Assembly: GCA_029959195.1 (NCBI GenBank)
Contig: CP114122.1
Span: 1,550,001 to 1,614,000, forward strand
Origin: Dictyophora rubrovolvata
Taxonomy: Eukaryota; Basidiomycota; Agaricomycetes; Phallales; Phallaceae
Direction of reading: 5' to 3'
Length of the DNA: 64,000 bases
Position 1 is the first letter of the stretch. Every line of letters begins with the position of its first letter. The notes beneath the pieces were generated by a model, which saw only the letters and a program-made list of their open reading frames with translations, ran no database searches and was not told the origin of the DNA. Of this stretch, positions 7,066 to 58,316 are shown piece after piece. The position numbers and the translations under genes were made by a program.

Positions 7066-7314
7066 TACAAGCTTTCTGAATATCACTACATATGGTAAGT
7101 TGGAATATAAAGTCTCAATTTCACTTACAATGAGATCTTGAGCGCGAGGGTTTTCTGAATTTGAACGTGGTTTCATGAGGCGCCCTACTAGTAAGAGTTT
7201 CTCGTCTCGGTAGCTGTAACTGCTACCGTAACTGAGCGCGTAACGTGTTGTCACAAATTTCCTCCATTTAATTCAAGGTTCAGCTTTAACCTTGCCATAC
7301 CATCTTCTCGTGTT
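7066..7314. other. Upstream flank of the decayed MSH6 copy
   Basis: Intergenic. It contains the 20-base block GCGCGTAACGTGTTGTCACA at 7236-7255, which also occurs, in the same plus orientation, upstream of the intact MSH6 at 58366-58385. Homology to the intact gene in the expected inverted orientation begins at about 7291. Confidence 0.6.
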
Positions 7315-10300
7315 ATGCCACCCATCAATACCAAACAAACACAGTTGAAACAGAAAACATTGATCGGCTTTTTCGCGAAACAACCTCCCATAGGTTCTGA
7401 AACACCAATTAAGAAGGGCATACCGGATACTTCAACTTCGTCGACCTCAGATGGCGTTGCTCGGAGTAGTGTCAAAAAATCTTCCGTAGCAGAAACGTCG
7501 CCCGCCATAAAAAATGGGAATGAAACGAAAAACGTGACAGATGACTTGAAGTGCGATGCAAATGGACATAAATTGGCTGGTTTTCCATCGTCGCCATTAG
7601 ACATGAAGAACACACCACCTACGAGCGATCAGATTGACGTTGATATGCTTTTTTCAGATGAAGATTCTCCTCCTAAAAAAATTGTAAATCGTATGTTCAA
7701 CTTTTGGATTATTGCAGTACTCAATGAGGTGCCCTAGATAAAGCGAAAAAAAATCATTATTGAAGATTCTGATGAAGAGATGATCCCGACGAACAATAAT
7801 CCACGCATATTGTCAATGCAATCGGATAAATCAATCAGTAAGTCACTTGATACGCTAGGTACGGTCTGCTCCATAGTTCAAATGTCTAGTGTCGTCGAAA
7901 AGGCTTCGTACTTCTTCTCCAGTAGAGGATACAGATGCACCCTCCAGTGATATCCATAGTTTTGGTTCAAAACTTGCCATGTTCAAGAATGAAAGAAGTA
8001 TGCGTAGCATAACTTGCTTTTAGTCCAAAGACCTCTCAGGAGCCTCTACTGGCAGTGCACGGTGTGATATTGCGGCCTCTGACTCTCATGCGTCTTCACG
8101 TGTTGCTACACGAAAAGGTTTGAATTTTCACAAGTTCCCTATTTTTGTTGACTATATTTTCTAGGAAGATCTCGAAGTGCTAGCAGTTCTCGTTCTAGTA
8201 GCCGAAGGTCAACCGATGATGACGACTTCATAGTGAACGATGAAGTCTCAGAGTCGGATGCCATGAAAGACGATTCAGAGCCAGAGCTTGAGCTCAAAAC
8301 GAAGAAGTCTAAGCACAAGCCCGAGGACGTCCCAAAACGTCCTAGATTGGAAACCGGCGTTCCGCCCTCGGGTGGGCCGCAAGACTTCTTGCTCACAGCT
8401 GCCGAACAGCGTACACGAGAGAAGAAGACGGATAAAGTTGAAAAAGAAGAACCGTTTTCCTTTTTGCTTGATATACGCGATGTAAGCAGCTTGTCTCGGT
8501 CCAAAATATCATTACTCATGCTCACAATATTTATGCTTTAGAAAGACCGGAATAGGCCTGGGGACGCTAATTAAGACCCGAAAACATTATACATCCCATC
8601 AAGTGCTTGGAAAGTGTTTACTCCGTTTGAGAAATAGGTAGTCATTTGTTCTAAAGGGCTTTCTAGATGCTGATTCTGCCTGCTTCAGTTTTGGGGGGTA
8701 AGCGTGCTCCGGGTCTTTTATGACAGTATTTTGGTAACATTCAGTGAAGATTAAGCAAATACACTTTGATACAGTGGGTGTTCGGTATCCTCAAGTGAAA
8801 AGGAATTAATTTATTGTAATTCTCTAGATTTTATTCTTCCAGAAAGGGTATTTCTCTTTATTATCATTGCGAGACAAACTGCTGACGGTCGGACAATAAT
8901 AAGCAAATTTTTGGAAGTAAGTTGATTCATATGTTATCGAATAAATTTTTATCGTGGTACAGCTCTGCGAAGAGGATGCACGAACTGGGCATCGTCTTTT
9001 TGATCTGAAGCCTACCCAAAGAGTCAAGATGTCTATGGTATGAGTTAAGGGACGGAACTCCATATAAATTTCTCACTGCAGTCCAGGTCGGCGTCCCAGA
9101 AATGTCCTTTAATTTTTGGGCAGCGTAAGTTTATGCATTATTTATTTTTAAAGTTATCCGACAACTCGCAGTTTCTTTAGAAAATTCCTCGCCAAAGGTT
9201 TAACTTGTTTGTATATATGAATCGTATTTACCTTCTAATAAAATGCAAGATTCAAAGTCGGCCGTGTTGATCAAGCAGAAACAGCCCTAGGAGCCGAGAT
9301 GCGTCGTACAGCAGACAAAGGCAAAGCATCGGGTGATAAACTTGTTCGACGGTATGATTATCATATAAACAACATATTTTGATTAGCTGATCACCGAATA
9401 GTGAACTGAATAAAGTTTATATCATCGGGACCCTGGTTGATGGGGAACTGCTTGTTGACGACGAAACCGTCCATTGTGTATCTATCTATGAAGATCCAGA
9501 AACAAATTCTTTTGGGATTTGTATCCTCGATAGCGCCACGTCTCAATTCGATTTGAGTGCTTTTAATGATGATGTTTGCCGAACCAGATTAGAAACGGTG
9601 ATACGACAATTGCGACCAAAGGAAATCGTATATACCAAGGTTTTGTGCTTTAATTTATATTTATTATGTTGCTCGCTGATCCTCAGTTCTAGGGAAACTT
9701 GTCTGTTTCGACTACACATCTTCTTAAGGGTATTTTACACGGGTCATGTCTTTGGACAATTCTCCGACCTAACGAAGGGTATGGATTCGAAGAAACCATT
9801 ACTCGGTTGAGAGAGATGTTCGGTGACAGCGATAATATAGACGAGAATATCGCATTACCATCGAGACATGATGGGTGATACTAATGTCGTCATCGCTTTG
9901 GGTCTTACCATGTGGTTAGTACAAAATACTTGGGTTTTCCGTCTATGCTTGAATAAGACATAGGTATCTCGGTCAATTGAATATTGACAAGGATATATTG
10001 AGCATGAAAAATTTCAATATCTATGACCCAATGAAGGCTGGCAAAGGGCTGATCTTAGACGGTCAAACTTTGGCTCACATAGAGGTTTGTGTTCACTTAT
10101 CAACTCGTTGAGCATAATTACTAATGAGCTTATTCTATAGGTTCTTGTAAATAACGAAGGCACCGCCGAGGGTTCATTACTAAGTCTACTAGGAAGATGT
10201 ATAACACCATTCGGTAACTTTTCCCGGTTGCTCCTTTCGAATTCTTTGAATTTGGTATATTTGTTTGATTACAGGTAAACGCCTATTCAGACTTTGGCTT

Positions 10301-12265
10301 TGCATGCCACTGCGAGACATCAACCAAATAAAAGCAAGGTAAAAACTATAAACTTTTTTGTCGATAATGATCACCAAGAGTTCGTTATTAGACAAGATGC
10401 TGTTCAAGATTTCATGGAGCACCCTGCCTTCGAAGCCAAGTTTTCAAAATTAGCTCGGGGTATGCCTGTCCTTGAACGTCTGGTCTCCCGTATTCATGCC
10501 AAGAACTGCAAGTGAAGGAGTTTTTGAAAGTGTTAAATGTGGGCCGCACTCATTCTAGCTGAGTTGCGTTATTCACTGACGCGTCCTCTAAATGCTTCAA
10601 AGCCAAGGTTTAGAAGACCTCGCCGAACTCGCTGATAGCTTATCCTCTAGTAGTATACGCGGTTTATTGAGGACGGCTCCTAATTTGACATCGAACATTG
10701 CCAATGTCGAGAGCATGTTTGAAAAGCCAGAAAACGGTATCTCACATGTTCTGGAACTAGTTGTTTTACTTCACACTTTCCTTAGAGAACGTAAATGAGC
10801 TTGTACCATGCGAAGGCACAGATGATGGAATACAATCGGAGAATAATGAGTTGGAGGATGAACTAGAAAGCCAACTGAAGACATTGCAGGAGAAATTAGG
10901 GTAATGCGCACGCATTAATGTTTTTCAAGCAGTTTTTACGCTGCTTGCAGGTTGCCATTGAAGTTTTGGCATAGTGCACAGGGAGCTAAGGTATGTATGT
11001 CAGTTTAGACATACCGTCAGTCGCTGACGTTGAACGCACACAATGTATTAGGAAATATATCAAGTGGAAGTAACAGCAAATATGGCAAGTAAAATTCCCA
11101 AATTGTGGTCCCAAACTGGAAGTACAAAAGCGGTGAACGATACTCTGTACCGACGCTCGAACCATTAATCAAAAAGTCAAAGGAAGGTCGTGAAAGAAGA
11201 AACGCAGCTGTTAAAGACTTCAAATATCGTTTATATCAGGAATTTGACACTGATCGGTCTGTTTGGCTGCATGCTGTTCGAGTGATGGCAGAATTAGACT
11301 GCCTGTTGAGTCTTGCCAAATCGTCCATGGCTCTCGGAGAACCAGTTTGTCGGCCCGAATTTGTTGAAGCTGATTCTGCTTTCCTGAATTTCGAGGAACT
11401 ACGCCATCCAGCTTTATGTTTGAAAACTGACTTTACACCTAATGACATTCGAGTGGGCGGTGAAGTCGGTCGTATTGCATTGCTTACAGGACCTAACATG
11501 GCGTAAGTTCTTCCTTTTCTCAAATGTATCAATGCTTATGGGTGTATTAGAGGCAAGTCCACCGTGATGCGCATGACAGCAGCCGGTGTGATCATGGCCC
11601 AATTGGGGATGCTTGTTCCCGCTAAAGATGCACAGTAAATAATTCTAATGCGATTACTTTTGTACCTGCTGAAGGGCTATGTCTAGATTGGTGCCTCTTG
11701 ATTCTATTCTGACTCGCATGGGTGCATACGATAATATGTTTGGTAACGCCAGTACCTTCAAAGTTGAACTTGATGAATGGCACGTATCTTTATTTCATGG
11801 GTGTTCAGTTTATTAATTTGATATTAGCTGCAAAATTCTTCGAAATGCCACCTCGAGATCGCTTGTAATTCTTGGAGACTCTTGTCGATGACGAGAAGAA
11901 AGAGGTCCGTATTTAACGTGACGTCTAGATTTAAAAAAAATAGAGTGGTGCTAATTTGAGACCATTAGCTTATTTTCCTTTACAAGCTCATCGACGGAGT
12001 GGCTACCGGCTCGTTTGGCACACATGTGGCCAACTTAGCGGGTGTCCCTGCCGAAATCGTTTTTCGTGCTGAAGCTGTGTCGCAAGATTACGCCAAGCAG
12101 TTCAAAGAGAAACTCTCTAAGCGAAGTAACATAGGATTGCCTTTGACCCTTCAAGCCGATTTTGCGTATCTATGGAAGCTTTCTACTGGACTGATGACTC
12201 CGAATGAGAACACGAAGAATACTCTTGACGTTTCGAGGAATTTTATCAAAAAGCAAAGCTTATAA
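7315..12265 (+). pseudogene. MSH6: MSH6 pseudogene (decayed duplicate)
   Basis: Collinear with the intact MSH6 at 53012-58292 and retaining its PIP box (QKTLIGFFAK), Walker A (TGPNMA, intron, GKSTVMRM) and C-terminal exon. It is broken as a gene. Compared with the intact copy it has an 8-nt deletion near 9859-9870, a 1-nt deletion near 10511 that creates a stop after AKNCK, a 7-nt deletion near 10594, and a deletion of about 320 nt near 11875 that removes Walker B (LDELGRGTSTF) and the following helix. The encoded ATPase could not hydrolyse ATP even if the frame were kept. Many exon-intron borders survive, and the two copies differ at scattered sites, so decay has gone on for some time. A truncated N-terminal product carrying the PIP box remains conceivable. 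Confidence 0.9.
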
Positions 12266-12361
12266 AGAACTGTCCAAATCTGCCTGCCTGTATTCATAGC
12301 TGGTTTTACCTCTATTCGCTGCTTTCGATATTTCAGTCTATTATTCACTACGCATCGTGCT

Positions 12362-12449
12362 GCATTATTTTATTTGTTTATAATTGAGCGCAATCTTAAT
12401 ATTATACCGTTATGCAAACCGTCCGGACGGACTCCATTCCAAAAATCCA
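12362..12449 (-). pseudogene. FMT1: 3' fragment of FMT carried with the MSH6 duplicate
   Basis: The reverse complement repeats the last coding bases of the FMT gene (from the FWNGVRPDGLHNG region through the stop and beyond, compare 52838-52925). Nothing of the rest of FMT is present. It marks the duplication breakpoint and shows that this locus is the derived one. Confidence 0.85.
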
Positions 12450-12974
12450 CTGTTTCAGTATCCAGAGTGTCCAGAGTATAAGGTGGTTTTCTATTAATGT
12501 CCAACCTATGTAGATAACACCTCAATTTTTGCTTCTTTTTGTTTTTCATCCATGTCGCTTCATCTGTGTATTAAGAAGTTGTCAGGTGAATTGAAACCAC
12601 GTTTGCATACTCCGCCTTTAGTTGTTGATTCAACAAGAATCAACATAGGTCTCTGCTCTCCGTGCAGAATTCAATTTACATGAACGCCGCCCTCATTAGA
12701 TTGCAATTTACTTAACACAACGCCGCTTGTCGAAGCGGTTGGGCAACATTGAATTATTCGGGCGAGTCCACAGTACATTCCCAGACGGGTCCCCAAAACG
12801 TTCGATATTACATGGTTGACCTGGGGGGGAACTGGGTAAGTACTCGTCGGCAGGCTTTCACTTGAAGATACGCATGTGTGTACGTATATGTGGAGTTTGG
12901 AAATAAATTACATGATAAAAATTGCTTTGATATGTATTTACGTGTATGAAATGATCAAATTACGAGAGACTGAA
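12450..12974. other. Intergenic, nothing recognised
   Basis: About 525 bases between the duplication breakpoint and the 3' end of YVH1. No open frame, tRNA or repeat was recognised; it includes the YVH1 3' untranslated region. Confidence 0.5.
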
Positions 12975-14928
12975 TCATATCACTACTTCGTCCACTTTTG
13001 ACTTGTGTATACAGAAGCCCTAGCAAAGGGAAGCAAAGGGATGTTAGCGAAGATAGGTTCTATCCACTTTGTAGACGACTAAATGCTTACGGGAACGACC
13101 CATTGTTTGCAGCTACATTCCACACCAGCCCAATCATAATTTCCCAACTTAGCATTACACTTTTTATTCGGACATATGATTTTTCCAGCTATGTTTCCAG
13201 TTTCAAGGAACGGATCCATCCATTTCATCTATCGTAACGTGACATCTCAGCCAGTTCAAAAAATACATGCAGTTAGAATGAAAGACGTACAGGCTCTACA
13301 AAATAACCCGAGCACTTCGCATGGGGCAAAAGAAGCGGGGGACTACTTGCTGAGATACTGATTAATTGTTTATTACCGCTTGCATTCTCCTGCTTGACGG
13401 AAATTGCTGTTGCAGGTCCAGCAGAACGCAAAGCAGACAATGCAGGATGAATCTGAGCAGCCAAATCTCGTGGCGACGAAAAGGAGTTATTTGTAGATAT
13501 ATTTAGTTTAGAGGCCGGTTGGGAACCAGTAGCCAGCCTGTCTGTTCCTTCTTCTTCATCCGATTCAATGGCCGAAGTGGAGTATCGATCTATTTTCCCT
13601 TTAGAAAGGGATCCCTTTCTTGTCAATCGTTCCTCGTTGTTAGAATCCGACGAGACATCAGGAGGAGAATCAGATAATGGGGTCATGGATAATCCGGCAA
13701 AAGGTCTCCTTAATTTCTGTCCAGCCTCAGAGAAAGAACTTCTTTGTTCTACCTGAGGCTTGTCGGCAGCATGGATAGGGGTCATAGGAGCAAGAGCAGA
13801 ACCGAACGACGGTCGTCTAACGCCCTCCGAGTTTGAAGGTCGTCGAATGACAGTAACTGTGGTTTGCTCCCCGCTTTCAGTACTTTTAGAAACAACAATT
13901 GTTTCACCCATCGAAGATCGCCTCGAATTAGCTGGGGATAAAGCCGTCGCAGTTCCTGGAGTTGACGGTCCTACTTGGCCATGATCAATCATGTGTTCAC
14001 GTGTTGCGAGTTCTTGTCTACACATTTTACAGCGAATACGACGACGACGTTGCGGATACGGTGTAGTAGGAACAGAATCACTCGGCGTTCGGGGGTACTT
14101 GGCAAACATTTCTGTCTCGATGGCAGAACCGTCTCCGTCTAGTATCCAAATTGAATGTACAGCAGAGCGGTTAAAGTTAAACAATAATTAACATACTAAG
14201 CACTTCTTTTACGGCACGTTCGACATAAAAAGCACGAATTTCTTTATTGCGGCGATTTGTCTTGAAATTGGCGGAGTGGAACAGTACTAGCTGGGACATG
14301 AAACTCTCGTTCGGTCTATCCCAAAGAAGTTTAGTAGAGATGGTAATACCCGGAGACGAATCGATACTAACTGTGTGATTGGACGCGCTTTTTTTATGAT
14401 ATTTAAAGCGGCTTCTGCATTGATACGATTTGTATACATCAAGTATGCTGCAACAATCGCTGCGCTTCGACCTGGAAATAATTTCATCGGACCAAGTAGA
14501 AGACAATGAAGTAAAAAAACGAACTCATTCCAGCCTAGATATAGAGAATTACTTTAAGGGAGGAAAAGGCATAATGGCAGGGGAACTACTTACCTGACAA
14601 TGAACTAGTACGCCTCTCTTTTTCTGGAGTTCGGAGCTAATCCAATCCACACACTTGGGAATGTGAACGAGCACATCCTCGTCGTCGGTATCATCTAAAG
14701 GAACTTGGTATCGTATAAAAGTCTTTAAAGGATGTCATGTAATGGGACCACGGATATCGAAAATGTGATAAGAGGTACCTTTGGAATGGAAAGTCTCCCT
14801 CTCATGACGCTCATAATGCTTTTGATGCCATTTGCTTGCAACGACTCCAAATTCAAGGCGGCTTTGAGACTTCCAATCCATAAGTTGTCGATGATCATAT
14901 CCATTTCATGATAATTGCTGTCAGACAT
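12975..14928 (-). CDS. YVH1: Dual-specificity phosphatase YVH1/DUSP12
   Basis: Dual-specificity protein phosphatase with a C-terminal zinc-binding domain. In yeast Yvh1 acts in late 60S ribosome maturation (release of Mrt4); that role is inferred by homology. Start ATG at 14926-14928 (MSDSNYHEMDMIIDNLWIGS). Exons: 14779-14928; 14594-14722, ending in VLVHCQ; a 10-nt microexon at 14525-14534; then from 14471 (RSAAIVAAYLM). Together they give the P-loop HCQAGMSRS. Later splices join ITQ to PNESFMSQL and EVL to NGDGSAIETEMFAKYPRTPS. The tail has CKMC, a Ser-rich linker, CSGYFVEP, intron, MKWMDPFLETGNIAGKIICP, CNAKLGNYDWAGVECSC, then a final intron and GFCIHKSKVDEVVI. All family landmarks and zinc-ligand cysteines are present. 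Stop at 12975-12977. Confidence 0.93.
14525..14534 (-). other. 10-nt microexon in the YVH1 catalytic loop
   Basis: Read on the minus strand, GCTGGAATGA lies between an acceptor TAG (intron 14535-14593, donor GTAAGT) and a donor GTTCGT (intron 14472-14524, acceptor CAG). It supplies A-G-M and part of the Ser codon of HCQAGMSRS. Skipping it would delete the phosphate-binding loop and shift the frame. Confidence 0.88.
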
Positions 14929-15943
14929 GGCGGTGCAGCGGATGGCTCAAGGAGACAATGACGAGAGTTTAGTACGTTTAGTATGGGTACAGCCAGTGCG
15001 GGCCGGAACTCGGCTCCAGCGACAAGTGGCACTCCGAGACTAGTAGTGGTTCGGTGCGCTCGGATGTATTGCAGCTTACGAGTCGTTAAATAAAACCCCT
15101 TCGTGTCGGACAAGAGATATGATAAAAATACGAGACCCCACACTGCAGGTGGCGGCAAGTGCATGATTACCAAATCCTATTGTGATTCGGATGTCCGATG
15201 AACTGAGACATGTCCTTGGGCCACGCTCAGCCAACGTGGGGGACAACGGGAGAGGAGTTCCAGCCATGAGTAAGTCTCGAGCCGTTCGGACTTCAAGGGC
15301 AAAACGTTAAACGAACATCGGAATGCCACATAATATTTAGGTACATAATTACTAATTTTAAGCCGAGGCCGGCAGTTTTAACTTACTTTTGAAGATGGTT
15401 ATGTACAGCTTTCGCGGAATATTGAAGAGAAGCGTCCCCGATTATTGAAACTAAACATGATGTTGGTTCATTCTGTCCCTCAACGTTGTTGAATGGATGA
15501 TAGTACTAGACAATCCGAGCATCGAGTCTTGATTTTTGAACTCTAAAAACATCCGAATTACGTCACGCGCCCCGATCGCGTCCGACTGCACAGTGCACAG
15601 TGCCAAGTACAGGCAGTAAGCTGCAGTACGTATCGCGTAGTGTGAACCACTATGCTACATTGTCGTCAACTTTGAATGCAATGCTCCAGGCTGTATTAAA
15701 TAAAACCTTTAAATAACTCCATGAGTCACTGATGCCTTGTCCGCTAGATGTCCAGATTGAGTGTCGAAAGTGTTTTCGGAAAATAAACAAATGGCTACTG
15801 CCGTATGTAAGATAAGTATCTACATGACATAAAATAACACAAGTATCAATCGTAGCATCCAACTTTGTCGCAAAACTACAACGTCACTCCTTCAATACTA
15901 AACATACAAACGCAATGTCCAATCGTAGATTCTCAAGAGGCTT
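14929..15943. other. Intergenic, nothing firm
   Basis: About 1 kb between YVH1 and the membrane-protein gene. Short minus-strand frames (14895-15267) overlap the YVH1 promoter and start codon and carry no family signature. The YVH1 promoter must lie in the left part. Confidence 0.5.
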
Positions 15944-16660
15944 TCAGAAATATTGGTATGTGATCTGAAGTAAAACTAACGACGAGAACATGACCAAAAG
16001 CCACAACTGTCGAGAAAATCCATCCCATACTGTCCACCCGATCATTGCGGAACCGAGCGATGATGCAGCCGCAACTGCATAACAAAAATCCTTGACCCAA
16101 GGTTGTGTGACTATTTGTCCTAGAATTTCCTGCGGAACCAAAAATACACAAATTTCTCTCCAAGCTAGCACGAGATAGGCCGCGTACAGGACATGGAATA
16201 TTTTTGAACGTGGATCGCTCATGAGGCCAACGAACGGAAGCGGCTCGAGGATGATTACCAACGTGATCACAAGTCCCAACTGTAACGCAACAAGCAAGAA
16301 CCGTTCGTTAGACACGAGGGAAATTAGCCACAGTGGACTGGCAATAAATAGTCCCCAGAAGACTGTTAAACTTAATAGTCCTACTAAGAACCAATATTTG
16401 AGCAACCAATATGAATCCACCACATACACGAACTTACATCGCAGAAGCATAAAACAAACGAAAACAGGTCCCCCAAGTCGTTCTAGTTCGTCAAGCCATC
16501 CATCGTTCAATGCCTCCGCATGGGCTTGACAGATTCTTTCGAATTCATTGAACGAACGCCTAATTCTCCAGCTAAAAGACTGGGAAATCGCTTCAGTTTC
16601 ATCACCGCTCGAAAGTGATTCCGGATCAGTTGTCGGCAGTAACTGGTATCTTATTGACAT
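15944..16660 (-). CDS. Multi-spanning membrane protein, family unknown
   Basis: 238 codons from ATG 16658-16660 to the stop at 15944-15946. The N-terminal 70 residues are polar and acidic (ATDPESLSSGDETEAI-like region), followed by five or six hydrophobic helices, for example about residues 90-116, 120-136 and 170-185, ending ITYQYF. I do not recognise the family. One internal stretch of 54 bases looks like an intron: on the minus strand GTAAGTTCG to TTCTTAG at about 16383-16436, in frame and free of stops. The protein is either 238 or 220 residues depending on splicing; removal would delete YVVDSYWLLKYWF-type sequence. Confidence 0.6.
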   Translation of the reverse strand: MSIRYQLLPTTDPESLSSGDETEAISQSFSWRIRRSFNEFERICQAHAEALNDGWLDELERLGGPVFVCFMLLRCKFVYVVDSYWLLKYWFLVGLLSLTVFWGLFIASPLWLISLVSNERFLLVALQLGLVITLVIILEPLPFVGLMSDPRSKIFHVLYAAYLVLAWREICVFLVPQEILGQIVTQPWVKDFCYAVAAASSLGSAMIGWTVWDGFSRQLWLLVMFSSLVLLQITYQYF

Positions 16661-16796
16661 GTGTAAACGGTGGAGGCAGTGGAAGAGTGTGCTAATCGCC
16701 CGTTGAAAACCGAATAGAACGATATGCTGCGTGCGGCGGCGTCACTGCGTAAGAGCCGCAAAGCTGTGATCTGTGACGCTGGGCGCCTAGTAAGGG

Positions 16797-16805
16797 TATA
16801 TATAA
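16797..16805 (+). promoter_or_regulatory. TATA box of the cofilin gene
   Basis: TATATATAA lies 55-63 bases before the cofilin ATG, a normal position for a strongly expressed fungal gene. Position-based inference. Confidence 0.6.
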
Positions 16806-16859
16806 CAATTCGGTAAAGGCCACCATCACTGTATCTATCCATCGTTTCTACATCTCACA

Positions 16860-17445
16860 ATGGTAAGCGCGTTTGAACGTCAGATATAATCGTGAACACA
16901 TCTAATGGTCACGTCAAGTCTTCAGGAATCGGAATCAGTGACAAATGCATCCCCACATTCCAAGAGCTTAAGCTAGGGAAGAAGCACAAATACATTGTAT
17001 ACGGTATCAACGACTCTAAAACGGAGATTATTCCTTTGGAGACCTCAACTAGCACAGAATATCAAGAATTCCTTGACCACCTTCCTAGTAATGATTGTAG
17101 ATGGGCTGTTTATGATGTTGAGTACGATCTAGGGGAGGGAAAGCGCACCAAGCTAGTTTTTGTCTCTTGGTATGATTAACCGCCTTTCTTCTTCTTAGAG
17201 AGCTCTGGCTGAATGAAGGTGGACAACAGGTCTCCGGAACATGCTTCGATCAAGAGTAAGATGATGTACGCATCGTCCAAAGATGTAATACGACGGGCTC
17301 TCGTCGGCATAGGATCCGAGATACAGGCCACAGAAGCCGATGAGATCTCTCATGAAGCAGGTGTGTAAAATGCTTTTATTAAGGACAAACATTCATAACG
17401 ACTCATTTGATTGTAGTCGTAGACAAGGTTTCTCGCGGAAAATAA
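16860..17445 (+). CDS. COF1: Cofilin/actin-depolymerising factor
   Basis: ADF/cofilin, which severs and depolymerises actin filaments in the cytosol and is essential in fungi. Four coding exons: 16860-16862 (the ATG alone), 16919-17169, 17230-17360 and 17417-17445, giving 137 residues, the usual length. Translation: start MSSGIGISDKCIPTFQELKL, then KYIVYGINDSKTEIIPLE, CRWAVYDVEYDLGEGKRTKL, FVSW joined to SPEHASIKSKMMYASSKD, the actin-binding long helix (VIRRALVGIGSEIQATEADE) and the end VVDKVSRGK. The Ser after Met is the usual regulatory phosphorylation site in this family. The first coding exon contains only the start codon, an arrangement I recall from fungal cofilin genes. Intact. Confidence 0.95.
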
Positions 17446-18321
17446 ACGTGTCTCATTAAATTCGTGATTACAACGCTCGGCGCTGTCCTCTTTTTGAGGC
17501 GATTAATATTGTATGATTCGGCATCGCTACACAGGCGAAAAGAAATATATTATCGTGATTGTCTATATGGAAGCTCTACGCGTCCGCGTTAGTATTACCA
17601 GCGCCTTTGATTCCTATCGATGAACATTCCGATGACTGTGGCTGTGACTGTGACTGTGACCAATAATAGGAAAAGGATTTGACCCCGAGTCAGAATTTGA
17701 CCAAGTTTTCTCTCGGTGAAGTATAGGTTTGGAAATCTTCAAAATCTCATCACTTGTTACATCTCATGCACAATTCGAATGCTGGAGAAAAAGAGCTTGT
17801 GAAGATGGCAGGGGACCGTTTGACTCGACAGTTCTGCTGTGCTGTGCATAGTCTGAATCCGGACTGACTGTCCGAAGCCTGCTTGTAGGCTGACATAATT
17901 TGGACATGGCCCCCAGTTTTCGTGAGTTTTCGTGGGCGTGATCTACCAGCAAACAATAGACTTGAACTATTATCTAGATAATTACAACTACCTAAATATT
18001 ATTATTTATTTTAGTCAGAAGACGTTGAGAAGACGCGTTTGGTAGCGATCGATTTACGTCATCTCAAGTTCTCAGTTTACAACTTTGCTTCTGGTGTGTG
18101 GCGCTGCATATGCACATTATATATCTCCCAGTTCGAATTCGTTTTTACGCGAAGTTGCAAGTCGGATGGAACGTTTCGTACCATGCAGTTCGAAGATTTC
18201 GCTGAGGTCAGTTGATACTTTGGCTTCCTAAGCTCAGATTATTTATTACCTCACCACCCTGTCTCCAGGTCGCTAAAGCTAAAGCTCTAAAGCCCCAACA
18301 GCTCAGCTAGCGGTGCCCTAA
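17446..18321. other. Intergenic between cofilin and the rhamnosidase
   Basis: About 875 bases without a supported gene. It contains a short imperfect TGTGAC tandem repeat at about 17637-17660 (GGCTGTGACTGTGACTGTGA). The right part should hold the promoter of the secreted hydrolase. Confidence 0.55.
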
Positions 18322-20747: not shown

Positions 20748-20799
20748 ATTAGTCGCTCCATTCATTATTTCTTTGCATACGACATAGTCTCGGATAAAA

Positions 20800-20807
20800 T
20801 ATATAAA
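20800..20807 (+). promoter_or_regulatory. TATA box of small paralogue A
   Basis: TATATAAA sits 110 bases before the ATG at 20917. Weak, position-based call. Confidence 0.4.
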
Positions 20808-20916
20808 CTCGGTGGCCACTCATGATATCACCTGATATCACATCTGTGACAAAGTTGATAAGATCCTCCTCGTCTTTTCAAAGATCAACCGCTTGCACCA
20901 AACCCGTTGAACTGCT

Positions 20917-21798: not shown

Positions 21799-21805
21799 TA
21801 TAAAA
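21799..21805 (+). promoter_or_regulatory. TATA box of small paralogue B
   Basis: TATAAAA lies 38-44 bases before the ATG at 21843. The spacing is tight but plausible for a fungal promoter with a short leader. Confidence 0.5.
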
Positions 21806-43992: not shown

Positions 43993-44221
43993 TTTGTGTT
44001 TTTTTATAGGAGGACGTCAATAAAGTATAGTCCCAGCGAATAAATTGGTTCCTTAGCAGGTTTGTCCATTTCTGGCGATAATGGCCAAAAAACACAACAA
44101 TAAGAAAGTACCAGCTGAGCACAGACACTTTGCAATTACCGGCGCTTAGACCCGTTCCAGCTTACCTAAACATACATATAATAAGCGCGCATCCCTCGTT
44201 CTCTTTTTGTTCACGCCCGAA

Positions 44222-47352: not shown

Positions 47353-47632
47353 AGTTAGATCGAAAACACGAAGTGTCACCGATGTCACACTGGCGTCGAT
47401 AAGACCCCAAGATAACGATTATTTAAGAAAATAATTAGTTAAATCCGCGCGAGCGAAAAATGACTTATAACAGGCACTTCAAAACAACAACAAATAATTG
47501 TTAAGAGTCTATAAGCGTTACTAGGTGTCGGTCAAGAGTTATAGTGAAGTGGTCATTTAGGCATGATGTTGTGGCACTGTCATATTTCAAGGCAGGTACT
47601 TTAAAAATTGGACGGCTTTTGGAAACAAAAGT
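47353..47632. other. PRI1 upstream region
   Basis: 280 bases between the PRI1 start and the tRNA gene. No element was identified with confidence. Confidence 0.45.
47627..47630 (-). terminator. RNA polymerase III terminator of tRNA-Ser
   Basis: Four T residues on the minus strand directly after the 3' end of the tRNA, the usual Pol III stop. Confidence 0.7.
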
Positions 47633-47726
47633 CGACAACAGCAGGATTTGAACCTGCGCCCTCATAGAGGATCAGATGGTTTGATAGAGTTCAAGTCTGA
47701 CACCTTAACCACTCGGTCATGTTGCC
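47633..47726 (-). tRNA. tRNA-Ser(UGA) with a 12-nt intron
   Basis: Read on the minus strand the gene starts GGCAACATGACCGAGTGGTT and ends ..TGTTGTC plus discriminator G. The acceptor stem pairs GGCAACA with TGTTGTC. The anticodon stem is TCAGA/TCTGA and the loop CTTGAA..A carries anticodon TGA; a 12-nt insert (CTCTATCAAACC) follows base 37 at the canonical intron position. A long variable arm (CCTC..GAGG) and B box GGTTCAAATCC fit tRNA-Ser. A T-run follows at 47627-47630 (on the minus strand TTTT), a Pol III terminator. Mature length is about 82 without CCA. Confidence 0.9.
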
Positions 47727-47842
47727 TGCAAAGCGTCGCCAAAATTGACATATACGGGTAGAAATGACTAATTCGCAAAACTATGCTTTGAATTATCTAC
47801 ATAACAATAACAGAACAAATGATTAATATACAATGTAGTAAA

Positions 47843-50800
47843 TCACGCTGACAAGACCTGAAGAAAACGTGTATAGATAGTGTTATGAATATGTTGAAGA
47901 CGATCGGCTTCATTAACAAGGTCAGACTCGAAGTCAATCTGCTAAAAATGAATCAGTGAGGATGGCATGTAGCAGTTTGGAATACAAACTTCATTTGTAT
48001 TTTCTTGAATGCTATCAAAGCTAGATAACAGTTTACTCAACATTTCCGAAAGGACAGCCTGATGTCGTGGATCCGTGCGATCCCGCAGAGCGTCTGGGAT
48101 CATGCGAATGAGCTGAGGTATGAGGTTTTTTACTCTATTGAGTTCGGCTGCTTCAACTACGTCATGAACAGCAGCTCCTTGAACTGAAGCAATGAGCATA
48201 GGCAGTCGTTCCATGACATCCGCATAATCCAAGAATAGCTATCGATATTCAAGTCAGTTAATGACTCATGTACGTATGAAGTCAATTTAAGAGGCGGACC
48301 TTGCCCCTGAAGGACCAATCATCCACAGCTTGGGGATCGAACGGATGGAACAAGGCACGAATGAGTGCCATATCACCTTTAATAACAGCTTCGGGACCCA
48401 ATTCGTACATAGCTATATCGTGGGCTATCTTCTGTTCATCTGCTTTAAGAAAATGTTCGTATGCATCGAACGCCCGTCCCTCGAATTGTGCCAAACAGCC
48501 CTATTCATGACATTAGACAGCGCCTAGCCAGTTACAATACACAACCCACTAATGCATATTCGATCCAGGTGTTGGGTATACTCATCGATTGTAAACCCAT
48601 TATTTGCCAATCTTCAAGATCATGGGCCCGCCTACAAAGTAAATCTTGTATGGCTTTCTTTCGGCTGTACATTACATTAATTACTATAAGTGAGTTTTTT
48701 TAAGTTAACGGCTTACCCGTTGTGCCCTTCCAGATGTAACAAAACAAAGACGGCCTTTTGTAGTTGTCCTAACGTTTCCAATTGAGCGGCATATGCACAA
48801 GTTACATTATCAGCGATATTGCTATGACCTTCTACTCCTGATTCTGCCGAAATGGTATCTTCGTCCAAATTCTGTCGATCGGAAAAGTCTTTGATACGCA
48901 TAGCACGAGAAAGAAGGATATACAAATGCCAAGTTATCCGATAGTCGAGACGCGAGGATGAAAAGGCACGTGGATATATTGCTCGCTCAAGAGGAATCTG
49001 TCCTGCCGCTAGACGGAGTAGCTCAAACGAGCCATCTGCCTCATCCAATGCAACAGTCTGGGAATCAAGACCCGCTACAGAGCTTGATGGTGCCTTTCTC
49101 AGAGCATTCACTTTTTGATACGGGAGCAAAGGGAACGGAGTTTCATTATGGCCTATATTTTTCTCGAAGCGTTCGAGGGCGCCTTCAAACCCTTCCATGT
49201 GTTCACTGCCGGGTCCATACCACAACATCAACCCAAAAGCTCGTTTCCAATCTAATCCATTGACAACATTTATCTCGCTTGCGCGATAGGTGTTGTTACC
49301 ATTCCGTGACGGTCGCCATAAACACGTTATACCGGCCAACACCGCCATACATTTGCGATAGCTCTCGTGAACGAGTTTATCAACGCCTTCACTGGACCAA
49401 ATGGCAAGCTGATTTTCGACATCGCCTCGAAATTCCGCGTCTCCTCCTGCTTGCGAAATCAACATCGCGAGATGAACGTCTCCCTCCGCCGCTGCCGCAT
49501 CAGTTGCTTCTTCAATCTGACGACCAGTCAACCTAATGAAGGCTCTCTCCGCGGGGGTCAAACTTGATTTCTCACGGAGAGAGGTTGTGACAGTGGGTGC
49601 TACCGTAGTTGCTAACCAATCTGCCAATGCCGTGCGCCGTTGAAGTGCAATAAGGCGTTGTTTCGTAAGGGAAGGAATGGAGGACAATACGTGACTGACA
49701 GGGTCAAACAATGCAATTCCCTGGCGCCATATTTGGGCTTCATGAGAGTGTTCGTTATCAGGCAGTAAAGATGAAAAAAGGGAGAATGTAAGGGCCCGAT
49801 TAGGGAATGCAATGGGAGTTCCTTCATCGTTCAACTCTATTGTCGAATGACTGATTTGAGTCTCCAAAAGTTGTGAAGCGCGGGATTTTTCGGTTTCCTG
49901 AGAAAAGTCCGATGAATACGTAAACGTGGTTTTCTAGAAACGCCGACTTACTTCATCACCAGCTATCACTGTGATATTTTGTATGTACACAGTCGAACTA
50001 ATGATAAATCGCAATTTAATAGAAGCTAGGATGATGTTGGATGAACATACCTTGACGTTGCTCCAACTCGTGCTAACATTCCACCTGGCCCCCAGCTGAC
50101 ACGCGTCGACCGACCTAATGCCAGCCCGGCATCTACATATGCTCCTTCCATGCCAGCTGTAACAAATTCAACACCTTGCATTCGAACAATTTTTCGACTA
50201 AGACGATAGGGTTCAGGATCCATTGACTTGTCAAATGTCGTGCGCTAAAAGGCGAAAAAGTTAATAATCATAAGCGCAAGGAAAACGACGACAAGAGACA
50301 TTCCTCTAATCGATCCAGTCGAGATCCGTCCCCTTCTGAACTACGACTGTGTTTCCGTAAAAGCTTCGAAGATGCGCTGAATAGCTTTTCCATGTGCTCC
50401 CGAGGTTCTAGTCCAGACATTTTTATCCCAGATGATTTTAACTTTAGTTTTTTTACCGACGACTTGTTGACATGGGTATCAGTCTTGGTATTCTTTTCGT
50501 GTTCCTTCGCTTCTGGTGCTCGGAAGAGCGATGCCTGCATGACATGCACTCGATAAGGCTCCAATCCAAGTTGTTCAGGCCACGAAGGTGGGGGCGCACT
50601 AGTTCTGCGCCGTTGAAAGACTTCTTCTTCCTCGTCATAATCATTATAGTCGTAATCCAATTCATCTTCAGTTGTTTCCCCAGAGACAGCACGAACGGGC
50701 TGCTTTGATTCTGCACGATCAGTCGCGACATGCCTCGAATGTCCCTCAGATGAAAACTTGGCTGCCGCACTCCTGTCTTCTAAAACCGCATTGAATATGA

Positions 50801-51047
50801 GCTTTGAAGGTTTTTCAGACTCCGGCGCAGTGACATTATTCGCGTTTATACGAGTGTCCCGAGTTTTAGCAGCTACCCCATTGCGGCCGCTGAGGTCAGT
50901 CTCAGGATCCTGCGAGTTCGTCGCACGCGCTTTTCCTTTATTTGACGTAGACGGGATCGAATTTGTCCTTACTTCCTTTGTTCTTGAAGCAGCTCGAGTA
51001 GGAAGAACCTCGTCGTCACTGTCTTCCGTCAATCCAAAGCGTGCCAT
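47843..51047 (-). CDS. NUP96: Nucleoporin Nup96 (Nup145C), free-standing
   Basis: Scaffold nucleoporin of the Nup84/Y-complex. ATG at 51045-51047 (MARFGLTEDSDDEVLPTRAA). The first 260 residues are charged and disordered, with an acidic run (DELDYDYNDYDEEEEVF). Exon 2 has SMDPEPYRLSRKIVRMQGVE and STRVSWGPGGML, the V-x-W-G-P motif of the Nup96 start. The long exon 48713-49867 is helical and contains the family block YRITWHLYILLSRAM (about residue 690 onward). Later exons are VKAYEHFLKADEQKI-like and DYADVMERLPMLIASVQGAA, and the last exon after an intron at about 47945-47992 reads QIDFESDLVNEADRLQHIHN, ending FLQVLSA. No Nup98 FG-repeat or autoproteolysis (HFS) domain precedes it, so Nup96 is a separate gene here. 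Confidence 0.87.
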
Positions 51048-51505
51048 GCTGAGACTTTGGTTGTGTCAGTATCGGTAATTGTGACGAGGGCCGTGACCTC
51101 AGGACACCTTGTTCTCATACGCGCGCCTGGACCCTGCGGAAAGAATCTTTACTTTACGTCTACTGCCTATTGTGACAATAACAATTTCTAGTAAATGCTG
51201 CTAAAAAATGGTGTTCAGCAATTGCAATTGATAATTGAGTCTTGTGGACGAATAAGCATTTTTAGTCTTTTCTTTACCATTACATAACAGAACTAAATGG
51301 AGCTGTAACGCTCATCTTGTGAGACTAGAACTTCTGGTCTACATACAAACTTCTTAAAGGTATTTATCAACTCGCACATGATCAAAGGATAGCGCTTAGT
51401 TTCATTTGATAAGGAGCTTTATTGAGCCCCGGGTTGTGCGTTTGGTATTGGATAATTGTGGCCGCGTCACGCTCGCGGCGCGCCAGCCGAGTAGAGTAAA
51501 GTCTT
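51048..51505. promoter_or_regulatory. Divergent promoter of NUP96 and FMT
   Basis: About 460 bases between two divergent genes. It includes a GC-rich palindromic patch at about 51462-51490 (GGCCGCGTCACGCTCGCGGC). No standard TATA near either ATG. Confidence 0.5.
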
Positions 51506-52910
51506 ATGGTTCTCGTGAACCAATGCTCCCGCTATTTGTCGACAATTGCGGATAGCTCTGCTTCAAAATGCAACATCCTATTTCTCGGACAAGATCGTTT
51601 TTCTTGTACAGTATTCAAATATCTATATCAAGAAACAGGTTCGTGGCCTCACCTAGTCTTGCCAGTTCCGAGTCCAGTCTTCCGACGCTACAAAAGATTT
51701 GTGGGACAATTTTTGCGTAGTGACAAACCCCGATGCTAAAACTGGCCGAAGAGGAAAAAATCTCTCCGCCTGTCAGTGTAAAGTCTCTTGTGAAGGATAT
51801 TCTATTCACAGTGTTGTCGATAGCACCATTGAGGCTTTTAGCTCGCTCACTCAACATTCTCGCAACAACCGTACCCCCCAAAGATGTCGGAATGAAATCT
51901 TGGGAGGTCAGTGTGGATCATGAAAAATTCGACAATATCTAATTTCTTATTGTTAGGTTCCCTCACTCTTTCAAAGCGACTCCTCTCGTGAAAACATCCT
52001 CATAACAGCTTCTTTTGGCCGTATCATACCTGCATCAATTTTACGCTTGTTCCGTAAAAGTCATCGATTGAACGTTCATCCCTCTCTGTTACCCTTATAC
52101 CGAGGACCGGCCCCTATTCAACATGCAATCGCAGATGGTGCGAGTATAACGGGTGTATCGATTTCAACTATAAATCCATTCACATATGGCGTCGATTCAG
52201 GTGACATATGGGCCAATCAATCAATGGTATCTCATACACTACTCTGGTAATCACATCCTGGATTCTAACACATTTTACAGAAATTAACTCCAGATATGAC
52301 TTTTGATTCCCTCAGTCGGACATTAGCAGATGTCGGCGGCCAATTATTAGTACATACTCTCCGGGAAATATTAGCTGACAAGGTAGGTAGCAGAGTGTCT
52401 GCTCATTAATCGCCAATTCCATGTAAGCTAGGCACGATCCACCAAACAAGATCATTCAAAAGCTACCTCGGCGCCATTTATAAAGAGGAATTTTATGGAA
52501 ATTGACTGGAATACATGGGACGCCTTCAAACTAGACCGACACCACAGAGCAGCCCATCATCAAGTAGGACATTAGAATCTCTATGAATGTTTTCTCATTC
52601 TGATTTGACATTACAGTACGCATTACGAACACTCTTGCCTTACGGGCTCAGCTTGCAATTAAAACGAGTATCAATTCAGTCACCTTTTAGACCCAAACAA
52701 CCAACATTATCGGATCCCGGTGATGCCACTTTTGATCCTTCAAGCCAAGCTATCATAATTCGATGTGCGAATGACACCGAGATTAGCGTGACACATCTAC
52801 AACAAGAAAACAAACGAGTACTCGGAGCTTTGGATTTTTGGAATGGGGTCCGTCCGGATGGTTTGCATAATGGTATAATATTAAAATTGCGCTCAATTAT
52901 AAACAAATAA
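51506..52910 (+). CDS. FMT1: Mitochondrial methionyl-tRNA formyltransferase
   Basis: Formylates initiator Met-tRNA in mitochondria using 10-formyl-THF. The ATG at 51506 starts a short Ser/Arg-rich leader (MVLVNQCSRYLSTIADSSAS), then the Rossmann part NILFLGQDRFSCTVFKYLYQ. After an intron comes LWDNFCVVTNPDAKTGRRG. Further on are KDVGMKSWEVP and the signature NVHPSLLPLYRGPAPIQHAI, with the H of the formyl-transfer site and SGDIW (the catalytic D in V-D-S-G-D). The last exon ends GALDFWNGVRPDGLHNGIIL. Stop at 52908-52910, 101 bases from the stop of the convergent MSH6. The final 70 bases are duplicated at 12362-12449. Confidence 0.9.
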
Positions 52911-55900
52911 AACAATGCAGCATGATGTGGAATGAATAGACTGAAATATCGAAAGCAGGGAATAGAAGTAAAACCAGCTATGAATACAGACAAGCAGATT
53001 CGAGCAGTCCTTTATAAGCTTTGGTTTGTGATAAAGTTCCTCAAAACGTCAAGGGTATTCTTCGTGTTCTCATTCGGAGCCATCTGTCCAGTAGAAAGCT
53101 TCCATAGATACGCAAAATCGGCTTGAAGGGTCAAGGGCAATCCTATGTTACTTCGCTTAGAGAGTTTCTCTTTGAACTGCTTTGCGTAATCTTGCGATAT
53201 AGCTTCAGCACGAAAAACGACTTCAGCAGGGACACCCGCTAAGTTGGCCACATGTGTGCCAAACGAGCCGGTAGCCACTCCGTCGATGAGCTTGTAAAGG
53301 AAGATAAGCTGATGGTCTCAAATTAGCACCACTCTATTTTTTTTAAATCTAGACGTCACGTTAAATACGGACCTCTTTCTTCTCGTCATCGACCAGAGTC
53401 TCCATGTGCATATTTCTGATATTCGGATGATTAGCAAAATCATCCGTTAGTGAGGAGTAATGTGTTGCAAAGCAGCATAAGGGAAGTGTATGCGTGGCCA
53501 AATGATGAAGTACAGCCTAATAACATCAGTAACCCGATACATATATCAAAAGAATCGTTATACTCACTCCAGCTATTGCCATACCATCCTAACATTTGTC
53601 AGTGTCGAAAATGACTAAATCAACAGCAAGACATACAAAAGTGGAAGTTCCTCGGCCAAGTTCTTACACGACCCGTTAGGCTAAATGGGAGAGAAAAGGA
53701 AAAGGGAATAAACGTACCGTCTAGAATCACAAGCGATTTCGAGGTGGCATTCCGAAGAATCTTGCAGCTAATATCAAATTAATAAATTGAACACCAATGA
53801 GATAAAGATGCGTGCCATTCATCAAGTTCAACTTTGAAGGTACTAGCGTTACCAAACATATTATCGTATGCACCCATGCGAGTCAGAATGGAATCAAGAG
53901 GCACCAATCTAGACATAGCTCTTTAGCAAATACCAAAGTGATTGCATTATAATTATTTACTGTGCATTTTTAGCGGGAACAAGCATCCCCAATTGGGCCA
54001 TGATCACACCGGCTGCCGTCATGCGCATCACGGTGGACTTGCCTCTAATACACCCATAAGCATTGATACATTTGAGAAAAGGAAGAACTTACGCCATGTT
54101 AGGTCCTGTAAGCAATGCAATACGACCGACTTCACCGCCCACTCGAATGTCATTAGGTATAAAGTCGTTTTTCAAACACATAGCTGGATGGCGCAGTTCC
54201 TCAAAATTCACGAAAGCAGAATCAGCTTCAACAAATTCGGGCCGACAAACTGGTTCTCCGAGAGCCATGGACGATTTGGCAAGACTCAACAGGCAGTCTA
54301 ATTCTGCCATCACTCGAACAGCATGCAGCCAAACAGACCGATCAGTGTCAAATTCCTGATATAAACGATATTTGAAGTCTTTGACAGCTGTGTTTCTTCT
54401 TTCACGGCCTTCCTTCAACTTTTTGATCAATGGCTCGAGCGTCGGTACAGAGTATCGTTTCACCGCTTTTGTACTTCCAGTTTGGGACCACAATTTGGGA
54501 GTTTTACTTGCCATATTCGCAGCTACTTCCACTTGATATATTTCCTAATACGTTTTGTGCGTCAAATATCAGCGACTGATGGCATGTCTAAACCGACATA
54601 CATACCTTAGTTCCCTGTGCACTGTGCCAAAACTTCAACGGCAATCTGCAAGCAACATAAAAATTGCTCGAGAAACAATGCAAAAAAAATGCGCCTTACC
54701 CTAGTTTCTTCTGCAATGTTTTCAGTTGGCTTTCTAGTTCATCCTCCAACTCATTATTCTCAGATTGTATCCCATCGTAAAGATCATCTTTGCCTTCGCA
54801 TGGTACAAGCTCATTCACATTCTCTAACAAAAGTGTGAAGTAAAACAACTAGTTTTAGAACATGTGACATACCATTTTCTGGCTTTTCAAACATGCTCTC
54901 GACATTGGTAATATTCGACGTCAAATTAGGAGCTGTCCTCAATAAACCGCGTATACTACTAAAGGATAAGCTATCGGCAAGTTCGGCGAGGCTTTCTAGG
55001 CCTTGGCTCAATTTTTTGAAGCACTTAAAGGACCCGTCAGTGAATAACGCAATTCAGCTAAAATAAATGCGGCCCACATTTAACACTTTCAAAAATTCCC
55101 TCACTTTGCAGTTCTTGGCATGAATGCGGGAGACCAGACGTTCAAGGTCAGGCATACCCCGAGCTAATTTTGAAAACTCGGCTTCGAAGGCGGGGTGCTC
55201 CATGAAATCTTGAACAGCATCTTGTCTAATAACGAACTCTTGATGATCAATTATCGACAAAAAAGTTTATAGTTTCTACCTTGCTTTTATTTGGTTGATG
55301 TCTCGCAGTGGCATGCAAAGCCAAAGTCTGAATAGGCGTTTACCTGTAATCAAACAAATATACCAAATTCAAAGAATTCGAAAGGAGCAACCAGGAAAGG
55401 TTACCGAATGGTGTTATACATCTTCCTAGTAGACTTAGTAATGAACCCTCGGCGGTGCCTTCGTTATTTACAAGAACCTATAGAATAAGCCCATTAGTAA
55501 TTATGCTCAACGAGTTGATAAGTGAACACAAACCTCTATGTGAGCTAAAGTTTGACCGTCTAAGATCAGCCCTTTGCCAGCCTTCATTGGGTCATAGATA
55601 TTGAAATTTTTCATGCTCAATATGTCCTTGTCAATATTCAATTGACCGAGATACCTATGTCTTATTCAAGCATAGACGGAAAACCCAAGTATTTTGTACT
55701 AACCACATGGTAAGACCCAAAGCGATGATGACATTAGTATCACCCATCATGTCTCGAATCGCATCTGGTATCCCGCTATTCTCGTCCATATTATCGTTGT
55801 CACCGAACATCTCTCTCAACCGAGTAATGGTTTCTTCGAATCCATACCCTTCGTTAGGTCGGAGAATTGTCCAAAGACATGACCCGTGTAAAATACCCTT

Positions 55901-58316
55901 AAGAAGACGTGTAGTCGAAACAGACAAGTTTCCCTAGAATTGAGGATCAGCGAGCAACAAAATAAATATAAATTAAAGCACAAAACCTTGGTATATACGA
56001 TTTCCTTTGGTCGCAATTGTCGTATCACCGTTTCTAACCTGGTTCGGCAAACATCATCATTAAAAGCACTCAAATCGAATTGAGACGTGGCGCTATCGAG
56101 GATACAAATCCCAAAAGAATTTGTTTCTGGATCTTCATAGATAGATACACAATGGACAGCTTCGTCATCAACAAGCAGTTCCCCATCAACCAGGGTCCCG
56201 ATGGTATAGACCTTATTCAGTTCGCTATTTGGTGATCAGCTTATCAAAATATGTTGTTTATATGATAATCATACCGTCGAACAAGTTTATCACCCGATGC
56301 TTTGCCTTTGTCTGCTGTACGACGCATCTCGGCTCCTAGGGCTGTTTCTGCTTGATCGACACGGCCGACTTTGAATCCTGCATTTCATTAGAAGGTAAGT
56401 ACGACTCATACAAGCAAGTTAAACCTTTAGCGAGGAATTTTCTAAAGAAATTGTGAATCGCCGGATAGCTTTGTAGGAATAATGCATAAACTTACGCTGC
56501 CCAAAAATTAAAGGACATTTCCGGGACGCCGACCTGGACTGCAGTGAGAAATTTATATGAGGTTCCGTCCCTTAACTCATACCATAGACATCTTGACTCT
56601 GTGGGTAAGCTTCAGATCAAAAAGACGATGCCCAGTTCGTGCATCCTCTTCGTAGAGCTGTGCCACGATAAAAATTTTATTCGATAACATATGAATCAAC
56701 TTACTTCCAAAAATTTGCTTATCATTGTCGGACCGTCAGCAATTTGTCTCGCAATGATAATAAAGAGAAATACCCTTTCTGGAAGAATAAAATCTAGAGA
56801 ATTACAATAAATTAATTCCTTTTCACTTGAGGATACCGAACACCCACTGTATCAAAGTGTATTTGTTTAATCTTCACTGAATGTTACCAAAATACCGTCA
56901 TAAAAAGACCCGGAGCACGCTTACCTCCCAAAACTGAAGCAGACATAATCAGCGTCTAAAAAGCCCTTTAGAACAAATGACTACCTGTTTCTCAAACGGA
57001 GTAAACACTTTCCAAGCACTTGGTGGGATGTATAATGTTTTCGGGTCATAATTAGCATCCCCAGGCCTATTCTGGTCTTTCTAAAGCATATTGTGAGCAT
57101 GAGTAATGATATTTTGGGCCGAGACAAGCCGCCTACATCATGTATATCAAGTAAAAAGGAAAACGGTTCTTCTTTTTCAACTTTATCTGTCTTCTTCTCT
57201 CGTGTACGCTGTTCGGCAGCTGTGAGCAAGAAGTCTTGCGGCCCACCCGAGGGCGGAACGCCGATTTTCAATCTGGGACGTTTTGGGACGCCCTCAGGTT
57301 TGTACTTAGACTTCTTCGTTTCGAGCTCAAGCTCTGGCTCTGAATCATCTTTCATGACATCTGACTCTGAGGCTTCATCGTTCACTATGAAGTCGTCATC
57401 ATCGGTTGACCTTCGGCTAGAACGAGAACTGCTAGCACTTCGAGATCTTCCTAGAAAATACATTCAACATAAATAGGGAACTTGTAAAAATTCCGACCTT
57501 TTCGCGTGGAGGACGCATGAGAGTCAGAGGCTCCAATATCACATCGTGCACTGCCAGTAGAGGCTCCTGAGAGATCTTTTAATACATGACTAACAACAAG
57601 TTATGCTAAGCATACTTCTTTTATTCTTGAACAGGGCAAGTTTTGACCCAAAACTATGGATATCACTGGAGGGTGCATCTGTATCCTCTACTGGAGAAGA
57701 AGTACGCAGCCTTTTCGATGACACTAGACATTTGAACTATGGAGCAGACTGTACATGGAGTATCAAGTGACTTACAGATTGATTTATCTGATTGCATTGA
57801 CGATATGCGTGCATTATTGTTCGTCTGGATCATCTCTTCATCAGAATCTTCAATAATGATTTTTTTTCGTTTTGTCTAGGACACCTCATTGAGTGGTGCA
57901 ATAATCCAAAAGTTGAACATACGATTTACAATTTTTTTAGGAGGAAAATCTTCATCTGAAGAAAGCATATCAACGTCAATCTGATCGCTCGTAGGTGGTG
58001 TGTTCTTCATGTCTAATGGAGACGATGGAAAACCAGCCAATTTATCTCCATTTGCGTCGCACTTAAAGTCATCTGTCACATTTTTCGTTCCGTTCCCACT
58101 TTTTATGGCGAGCGACGTTTCTGTTACGGAAGATTTTATGACACTACTCCGAGCCGCGCCATCTGAAATCGACGAAATATCCCCTATGCTCTTCTTAATT
58201 GGTGTTTTAGAATCTACGGAAGGTCGTTTCGCGAAAAAGCTGATCAAAGTTTTCTGTTTCAGCTGGGTTTGCTTGGTATTGACGGGTGGCATAATACGAG
58301 AAGATGATATGGCAAG
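52838..58316 (-). repeat. Right arm of the inverted segmental duplication (source copy)
   Basis: Matches the reverse complement of 7291-12449. It is longer (about 5.48 versus 5.16 kb) because the left arm suffered deletions. It contains the intact MSH6 and the last codons of a whole FMT gene, so this locus is the parent. Confidence 0.9.
53012..58292 (-). CDS. MSH6: DNA mismatch repair protein MSH6
   Basis: Partner of MSH2 in MutS-alpha, which recognises base-base mismatches in the nucleus. ATG at 58290-58292 (MPPVNTKQTQLKQKTLISFF) carries the PCNA-binding PIP box QKTLISFF at residues 13-20. Then a disordered acidic linker (to about 57100) leads to the MutS domains: mismatch-binding, connector (INTKILDSATSQFDLSAFND-like), lever (VIRQDAVQDFMEHPAFEAEF, GMPDLERLVSRIHAKNCK, with an intron to CFKKLSQGLESLAELADS) and ATPase. 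The Walker A TGPNMA|GKST is split by an intron near 54080, Walker B reads VILDELGRGTSTF across an intron at about 53664-53718, and DGMAIAG and FATHYSSLTDDF follow. The end reads LWKLSTGQMAPNENTKNTLD. No frame break found in the blocks checked. At least twenty introns. Confidence 0.92.

Follow-up and report, generated by a model that had tools for sequence, protein, structure and literature searches.

The 64,000-nucleotide stretch analysed here (the window) lies at positions 1,550,001 to 1,614,000 of contig CP114122.1 in assembly GCA_029959195.1 of the basidiomycete Dictyophora rubrovolvata, a 2.7-Mb contig in a genome of 28.2 Mb and 11 contigs, and it carries two copies of the mismatch-repair gene MSH6 in inverted orientation. 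A BLAST comparison of the window against itself delimited the pair as 7291-12449 on the forward strand and 52831-58316 on the reverse strand, with lengths of 5159 bp for the left copy and 5486 bp for the right copy and with 40381 bp separating their inner ends. The principal features are listed below.

7291-12449, forward strand: left MSH6 copy, pseudogene, with its start codon at 7315 and its former stop position at 12263-12265
52831-58316, reverse strand: right MSH6 copy, from which the left one was duplicated
53012-58292, reverse strand: predicted intact MSH6 gene, supported by a hand-built model, Pfam and a match to human MSH6
51957-52910, forward strand: FMT, a formyltransferase gene with exons 51957-52247 and 52587-52907 and stop codon 52908-52910
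12370-12449, reverse strand: FMT tail carried by the left copy, namely 25 codons plus the stop codon

The similarity is divided into two segments, 7291-11872 against 58316-53723 (93.0% identity) and 11873-12449 against 53404-52831 (93.8% identity), between which 318 bp are absent from the left copy. Over 5128 aligned bases there are 289 mismatches (228 transitions and 61 transversions), giving a mean divergence of 5.6%, and the flanks of the two copies did not align in gene orientation. A genome-wide DNA search that used 1851 bases from the right copy as query returned two places, both inside the window; the 3' flank of the left copy matched itself alone, and for the 8.8 kb adjoining the right copy on the FMT side the other matches in the genome were short repeats alone, at five places. 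Two short stretches (approximately 57 and 100 bp) within 47398-47727 were matched at 86-93% at five other genome places.

FMT is convergent with the right MSH6 and continues unbroken across the 52831 boundary, and its ending, DFWNGVRPDGLHNGIIL[K/R]LRSIINK-stop, is present in both copies with one K/R difference. Because the final 25 codons and the stop of an FMT gene that is unbroken at the right are present in the left copy, the right locus is identified as the source. The preliminary description of this DNA had proposed an inverted, single-gene duplication about 40 kb apart, with a left copy that ends within the last FMT codons and was derived from the right locus, and that carries several small frame-breaking deletions and has lost its Walker B exon. 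The BLAST pair and the shared FMT tail agree with this, one whole gene and the FMT tail having been copied; the copy alignment confirmed the deletions.

An intact MSH6 and an unprocessed pseudogene

The right-copy model was built by hand, guided by reading frames and human MSH6, with predicted splice sites; it contains 31 exons, 3714 bases including the stop codon, 1237 residues and 30 introns of 40-64 nt. Pfam detected the MutS I, II, III, IV and V domains in order, Walker A (GPNMAGKST) and Walker B (DELGRGTST) are intact, and the best solved match was human MSH6 (1.7e-129), followed by MSH3 (2e-89) and MSH2 (3.6e-67). The three gaps within right-copy exons (6, 9 and 3 bp) are all in frame. 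While 29 introns start with GT, intron 26 (53768-53815) has an apparent GC donor, and the left copy also has GC there. The possibility that the right copy is dead as well, raised by a Walker B that looked scrambled, was rejected, since the acceptor GTGTAAG restores ELGRGTSTF.

A search of the genome for the MutS_V family gave 17 matches, and those outside the window fell at five loci that were read by eye as MSH1-5. Single-exon searches supported the MSH2 and MSH3 loci; the MSH1-like exon was nearest to bacterial MutS and the MSH4-like exon matched general MutS-type proteins, with MSH6 nearest in neither case, and the MSH5-like exon gave no match at E 0.01 in such a search. The right copy is the only predicted intact MSH6 found in the genome, and its product presumably pairs with MSH2 as MutS-alpha, recognising base mismatches.

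The left copy carries the following lesions, all given on the forward strand.

8572-8574: premature stop TAA in exon 6, where right-copy codon 332 is TAT
8635-8637: premature stop TAG in exon 6, where right-copy codon 353 is CAG
9246-9248: lost acceptor of intron 13, CAA for CAG in the right copy
9860-9861: 8-bp deletion with frameshift in exon 16, from the alignment
10509-10510: 1-bp deletion with frameshift in exon 20, from the alignment
10590-10592: lost acceptor of intron 20, AAA for AAG in the right copy
10600-10601: 7-bp deletion with frameshift in exon 21, from the alignment
11135-11136: 1-bp deletion with frameshift in exon 24, from the alignment
11872-11873: 318-bp deletion removing all of exons 28 and 29, part of each neighbouring exon (27 and 30) and, with them, Walker B (ELGRGTSTF)

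These amount to two stops, four frameshifts, two acceptors and one large deletion; a further 9-bp deletion, in exon 22, is in frame. The introns are kept, with 27 of 30 aligning and the remaining three inside the 318-bp deletion. By these features the left copy is now an unprocessed pseudogene. A retrocopy was rejected, as the introns are present, the 3' end lacks a poly(A) tract and the flanks have only 5-base words in common. Repeat-induced point mutation was likewise rejected: of the 208 C/T-type differences whose neighbour is readable, 45 (22%) are at CpA, against a background of 31.5%, and 62 are at CpG. Five single-base gaps separate the copies (8715, 8942, 10367, 10509 and 11135), and in every case it is the left copy that lacks the base. 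Exons 1-5 of the left copy are still open, and one might speculate that, if expressed, it could yield approximately 337 residues with an N-terminal sequence that we take to resemble a PCNA box.

Patchwork identity and probable past constraint

Divergence between the copies is markedly uneven. Intron mismatches number 24/293 in introns 1-6, 7/257 in 7-11, 15/101 in 12-13, 9/322 in 14-19, 32/214 in 20-23, 0/48 in 24, 12/100 in 25-26 and 1/64 in 30, so that segments of about 3% divergence stand beside others of about 15%. The blocks, which were defined after inspection, differ at a chi-square P of 9e-10, and a block-free test, covering the 27 introns in which bases align, gave P 2e-4. Exon third-position divergence tracks the divergence of the adjoining introns (rho 0.60, P 0.005; 20 exons, each having 20 or more such sites). 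Two adjoining tracts illustrate the pattern, with counts over intron, untranslated-region (UTR) and third-position sites.

9480-10482, forward strand: low-divergence tract, read as a putative conversion tract, 13 of 517 sites differing
10485-11227, forward strand: high-divergence tract, read as a putative older, unconverted segment, 56 of 391 sites differing

Over all sites a two-state model was preferred by 32.4 units of the Bayesian information criterion (BIC), and the segment-to-segment variance of intron, UTR and third-position divergence exceeded that of all 5000 shuffles; the longest identical run, 171 bases, is less striking alone (permutation P 0.013). The patchwork appears best explained by an older duplication that was partly re-homogenised by gene conversion.

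If the left copy had been neutral since birth, a pairwise omega (non-synonymous to synonymous rate ratio) of approximately 0.5 or more would be expected. Maximum likelihood gave 0.369 for the whole gene (1168 codons; twice the log-likelihood difference, 2dlnL, 3.5 against 0.5), 0.306 for exons 6-31 (2dlnL 5.5) and 0.25 for exons 20-31 (one-sided P 0.001-0.003), with 0.19 in exons beside diverged introns (226 codons) and 0.52 in low-divergence exons (320 codons). The whole-gene value replaces an initial 0.251, obtained without transition bias, which overstated constraint. Where the right copy and human MSH6 share a residue, the left copy has changed 8 of 269, compared with 21.0 expected if neutral (P 0.001); the corresponding counts are 5 of 147 against 15.9 in exons 20-31 (P 0.0015) and 3 of 106 against 4.1 in low-divergence exons, all of these expectations assigning half of the silent divergence to the left copy. 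In the mirror count, the right copy has changed 5 of the 266 residues that the left copy shares with human. It is likely that the left copy was under past coding constraint, and so it was probably functional for a while.

Several observations weigh against this interpretation. The whole-gene test against 0.5 gives a 2dlnL of only 3.5 and exons 1-5 have an omega of 0.505; the diverged and low-divergence exon classes differ at P 0.056 only, and were set after the intron divergence was seen. Raw intron divergence is 7.1%, below that of synonymous sites, and by introns the left copy is near neutral throughout. On intron, UTR and third-position sites, the gain of the two-state model is only 4.5 BIC units. 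Conversion is read here from the sequence of one genome assembly, and reading the direction of exchange or branch-specific selection would take an outgroup.

The preliminary description had also regarded the duplication as young and one copy as dead, decaying simply after its insertion. The term young is doubtful because the 5.6% mean hides intron segments of about 15% and about 3%, which fit an older duplication with conversion. Simple decay is doubtful too in view of the omega and residue counts in exons 20-31, the comparison of synonymous and non-synonymous differences being weaker over the whole gene. That the left copy is dead holds for the present, given its stops, frameshifts, lost acceptors and deletion, whereas at birth it was probably functional. 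Before its decay it might, as the preliminary description suggested, have affected MSH6 dosage and the mutation rate.

Origin of the inverted copy

The duplicated block starts 24 bp before the ATG, and immediately outside its left boundary lies a fragment of 45-52 bp that matches sequence upstream of the right copy.

7236-7287, forward strand: piece of sequence from upstream of the right copy, flipped, at the left 5' junction, the first 20 bases exact
58366-58410, forward strand: counterpart of this fragment upstream of the right copy; the two lie on one chromosome strand and are thus opposite relative to the gene

To the right of the exact 20-base word gapped similarity continues (P 0.0017, shuffles), and to its left there is no similarity (P 0.52, shuffles). 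The exact word occurs at two places in the genome, namely these two, in flipped gene orientation; with up to three mismatches it occurs at six places, versus two for a reversed control pattern. No templated segment was noted at the 3' junction. An ACGCG in the flipped block might be read as a cell-cycle promoter box, a reading for which a literature search gave no support. Replicative template switching would be the simplest reading of the flipped fragment. Template-switch duplications, of the fork stalling and template switching (FoSTeS) or microhomology-mediated break-induced replication (MMBIR) type, are a known class, with which the pair shares a dispersed inverted copy and a short flipped near-source segment at a junction; it departs from that class in that the 5' junction alone shows such a segment, and a promoter micro-inversion would look similar.

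We assign a probability of approximately 0.65 to the full history, in which the whole MSH6 and the FMT tail were copied from the right FMT-MSH6 locus and placed in inverted orientation 40 kb away, probably by a replicative template switch that left the flipped upstream fragment behind. For some of the time since then, the coding sequence of both copies would have been constrained, as the statistical support, short of proof, suggests; several tracts would have been re-homogenised by gene conversion between the copies, and the left copy would have died later through many lesions.

An alternative hypothesis is that the left copy was non-functional from the outset and decayed neutrally, while conversion from the right copy kept parts of it similar. 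This fits the omega values near 0.5 in exons 1-5 and in the low-divergence exons, as expected for one neutral and one constrained copy, as well as the intron yardstick and the presence of at least nine lesions; we nevertheless hold it to be unlikely in view of exons 20-31, where both the low omega and the deficit of changes at conserved residues stand against it. The signal of past constraint would also be mimicked if the left copy came from the diverged MSH6 allele of another lineage, with divergence and constraint largely predating the duplication. Such a donor likewise predicts low omega in diverged exons followed by neutral decay, but it requires an extra step, the FMT tail and the junction fragment being explained without it, and we judge it distinctly unlikely.

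With regard to the junction, there is an appreciable though minor chance that one copy underwent a micro-inversion of its promoter at a later time and that the flipped fragment does not stem from a template switch at birth: a flipped block is expected under either route, but a flip of the whole promoter should have carried along the sequence left of the 20-base word, where the copies are not similar. That the pair is an assembly artefact or a haplotype duplicate seems scarcely credible. In the assembled sequence the inverted copies differ at 289 sites and in their flanks while lying on one contig, and the right-flank 8.8 kb and the left 3' flank are not duplicated elsewhere except for short repeats in the former.

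Repeats border both copies, as follows for the right one.

58420-62585, strand not assigned: nest of dispersed repeats, its near edge 128 bp before the ATG of the intact MSH6

A repeat search with 58317-64000 gave at least 118 matches including itself, the best 40 of 553 candidates being scored. Within the nest, there are two further copies of 58420-59986 at about 97%, many places match 59980-61298 at 85-93%, and six open frames that were tried had no Pfam match. Because these repeats begin at 58420, the only intact MSH6 has a short native upstream region. Beside the left copy, 3976-7066 is a gene or gene-like segment that has colinear relatives on contig C8 (86%) and, for part of its length, on contig C1 (89%), and a 403-aa open frame at 5854-7062 had no Pfam match; 5454-5808 is a dispersed repeat of approximately 300-350 bp that also occurs on contigs C5 (96%), C9 (93%) and C6 (78%). 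Carriage of the left copy by a mobile element was not supported, as the 5' repeat stops at 7066, 225 bp short, and the 3' flank is unique. Genes elsewhere in the window include those of Mcp5_PH, Nup96 and Say1/Mug180 type, and the introns are short and dense, features that point to a fungal genome.

Comparison with PMS2 and implications

Like unprocessed pseudogenes generally, the left copy has kept introns, carries the tail of a flanking gene and bears many disabling lesions; it differs from them in the signature of past constraint in its diverged exons and in its patchy identity. The closest known case that we found is human PMS2 and PMS2CL. In the published account (PMC3398144), PMS2CL is described as an inverted-duplication pseudogene of the mismatch-repair gene PMS2, on the same chromosome and with an exon deleted, and the two swap sequence by conversion and by crossover, which inverts the intervening interval. 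Both systems comprise inverted copies of a mismatch-repair gene on one chromosome, a partly deleted pseudogene and, here as far as one genome suggests, patchwork identity. However, PMS2CL belongs to a 100-kb duplicon at a distance of 0.7 Mb and comprises 3' exons only, whereas here a whole gene of 5.2-5.5 kb lies 40 kb away; MSH6 is a MutS gene and PMS2 a MutL gene; and exchange was observed in patients for PMS2 and is deduced from one assembly for MSH6. No fungal MSH6 pseudogene or paralogue with conversion was found among the listed titles and opening lines of abstracts in a literature search.

MutS-alpha normally blocks recombination between diverged sequences. It is conceivable, but highly improbable in our estimation, that the pair acts as a slow mutation-rate switch, in which conversion by the pseudogene breaks the only MSH6 and this loss raises exchange with the inverted partner; if so, still more exchange would be favoured, as would inversion of the intervening 40 kb and repair wherever the partner remains intact. 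The loss of mismatch repair produces mutators, and a core repair gene that shares its chromosome with a broken, convertible twin would have a built-in route to inactivation, like human PMS2. If conversion did cross a divergence of approximately 15%, this would bear on how strictly MSH6 acts against the recombination of its own diverged copies; otherwise, the pair would represent a well-preserved duplicate caught between function and decay.

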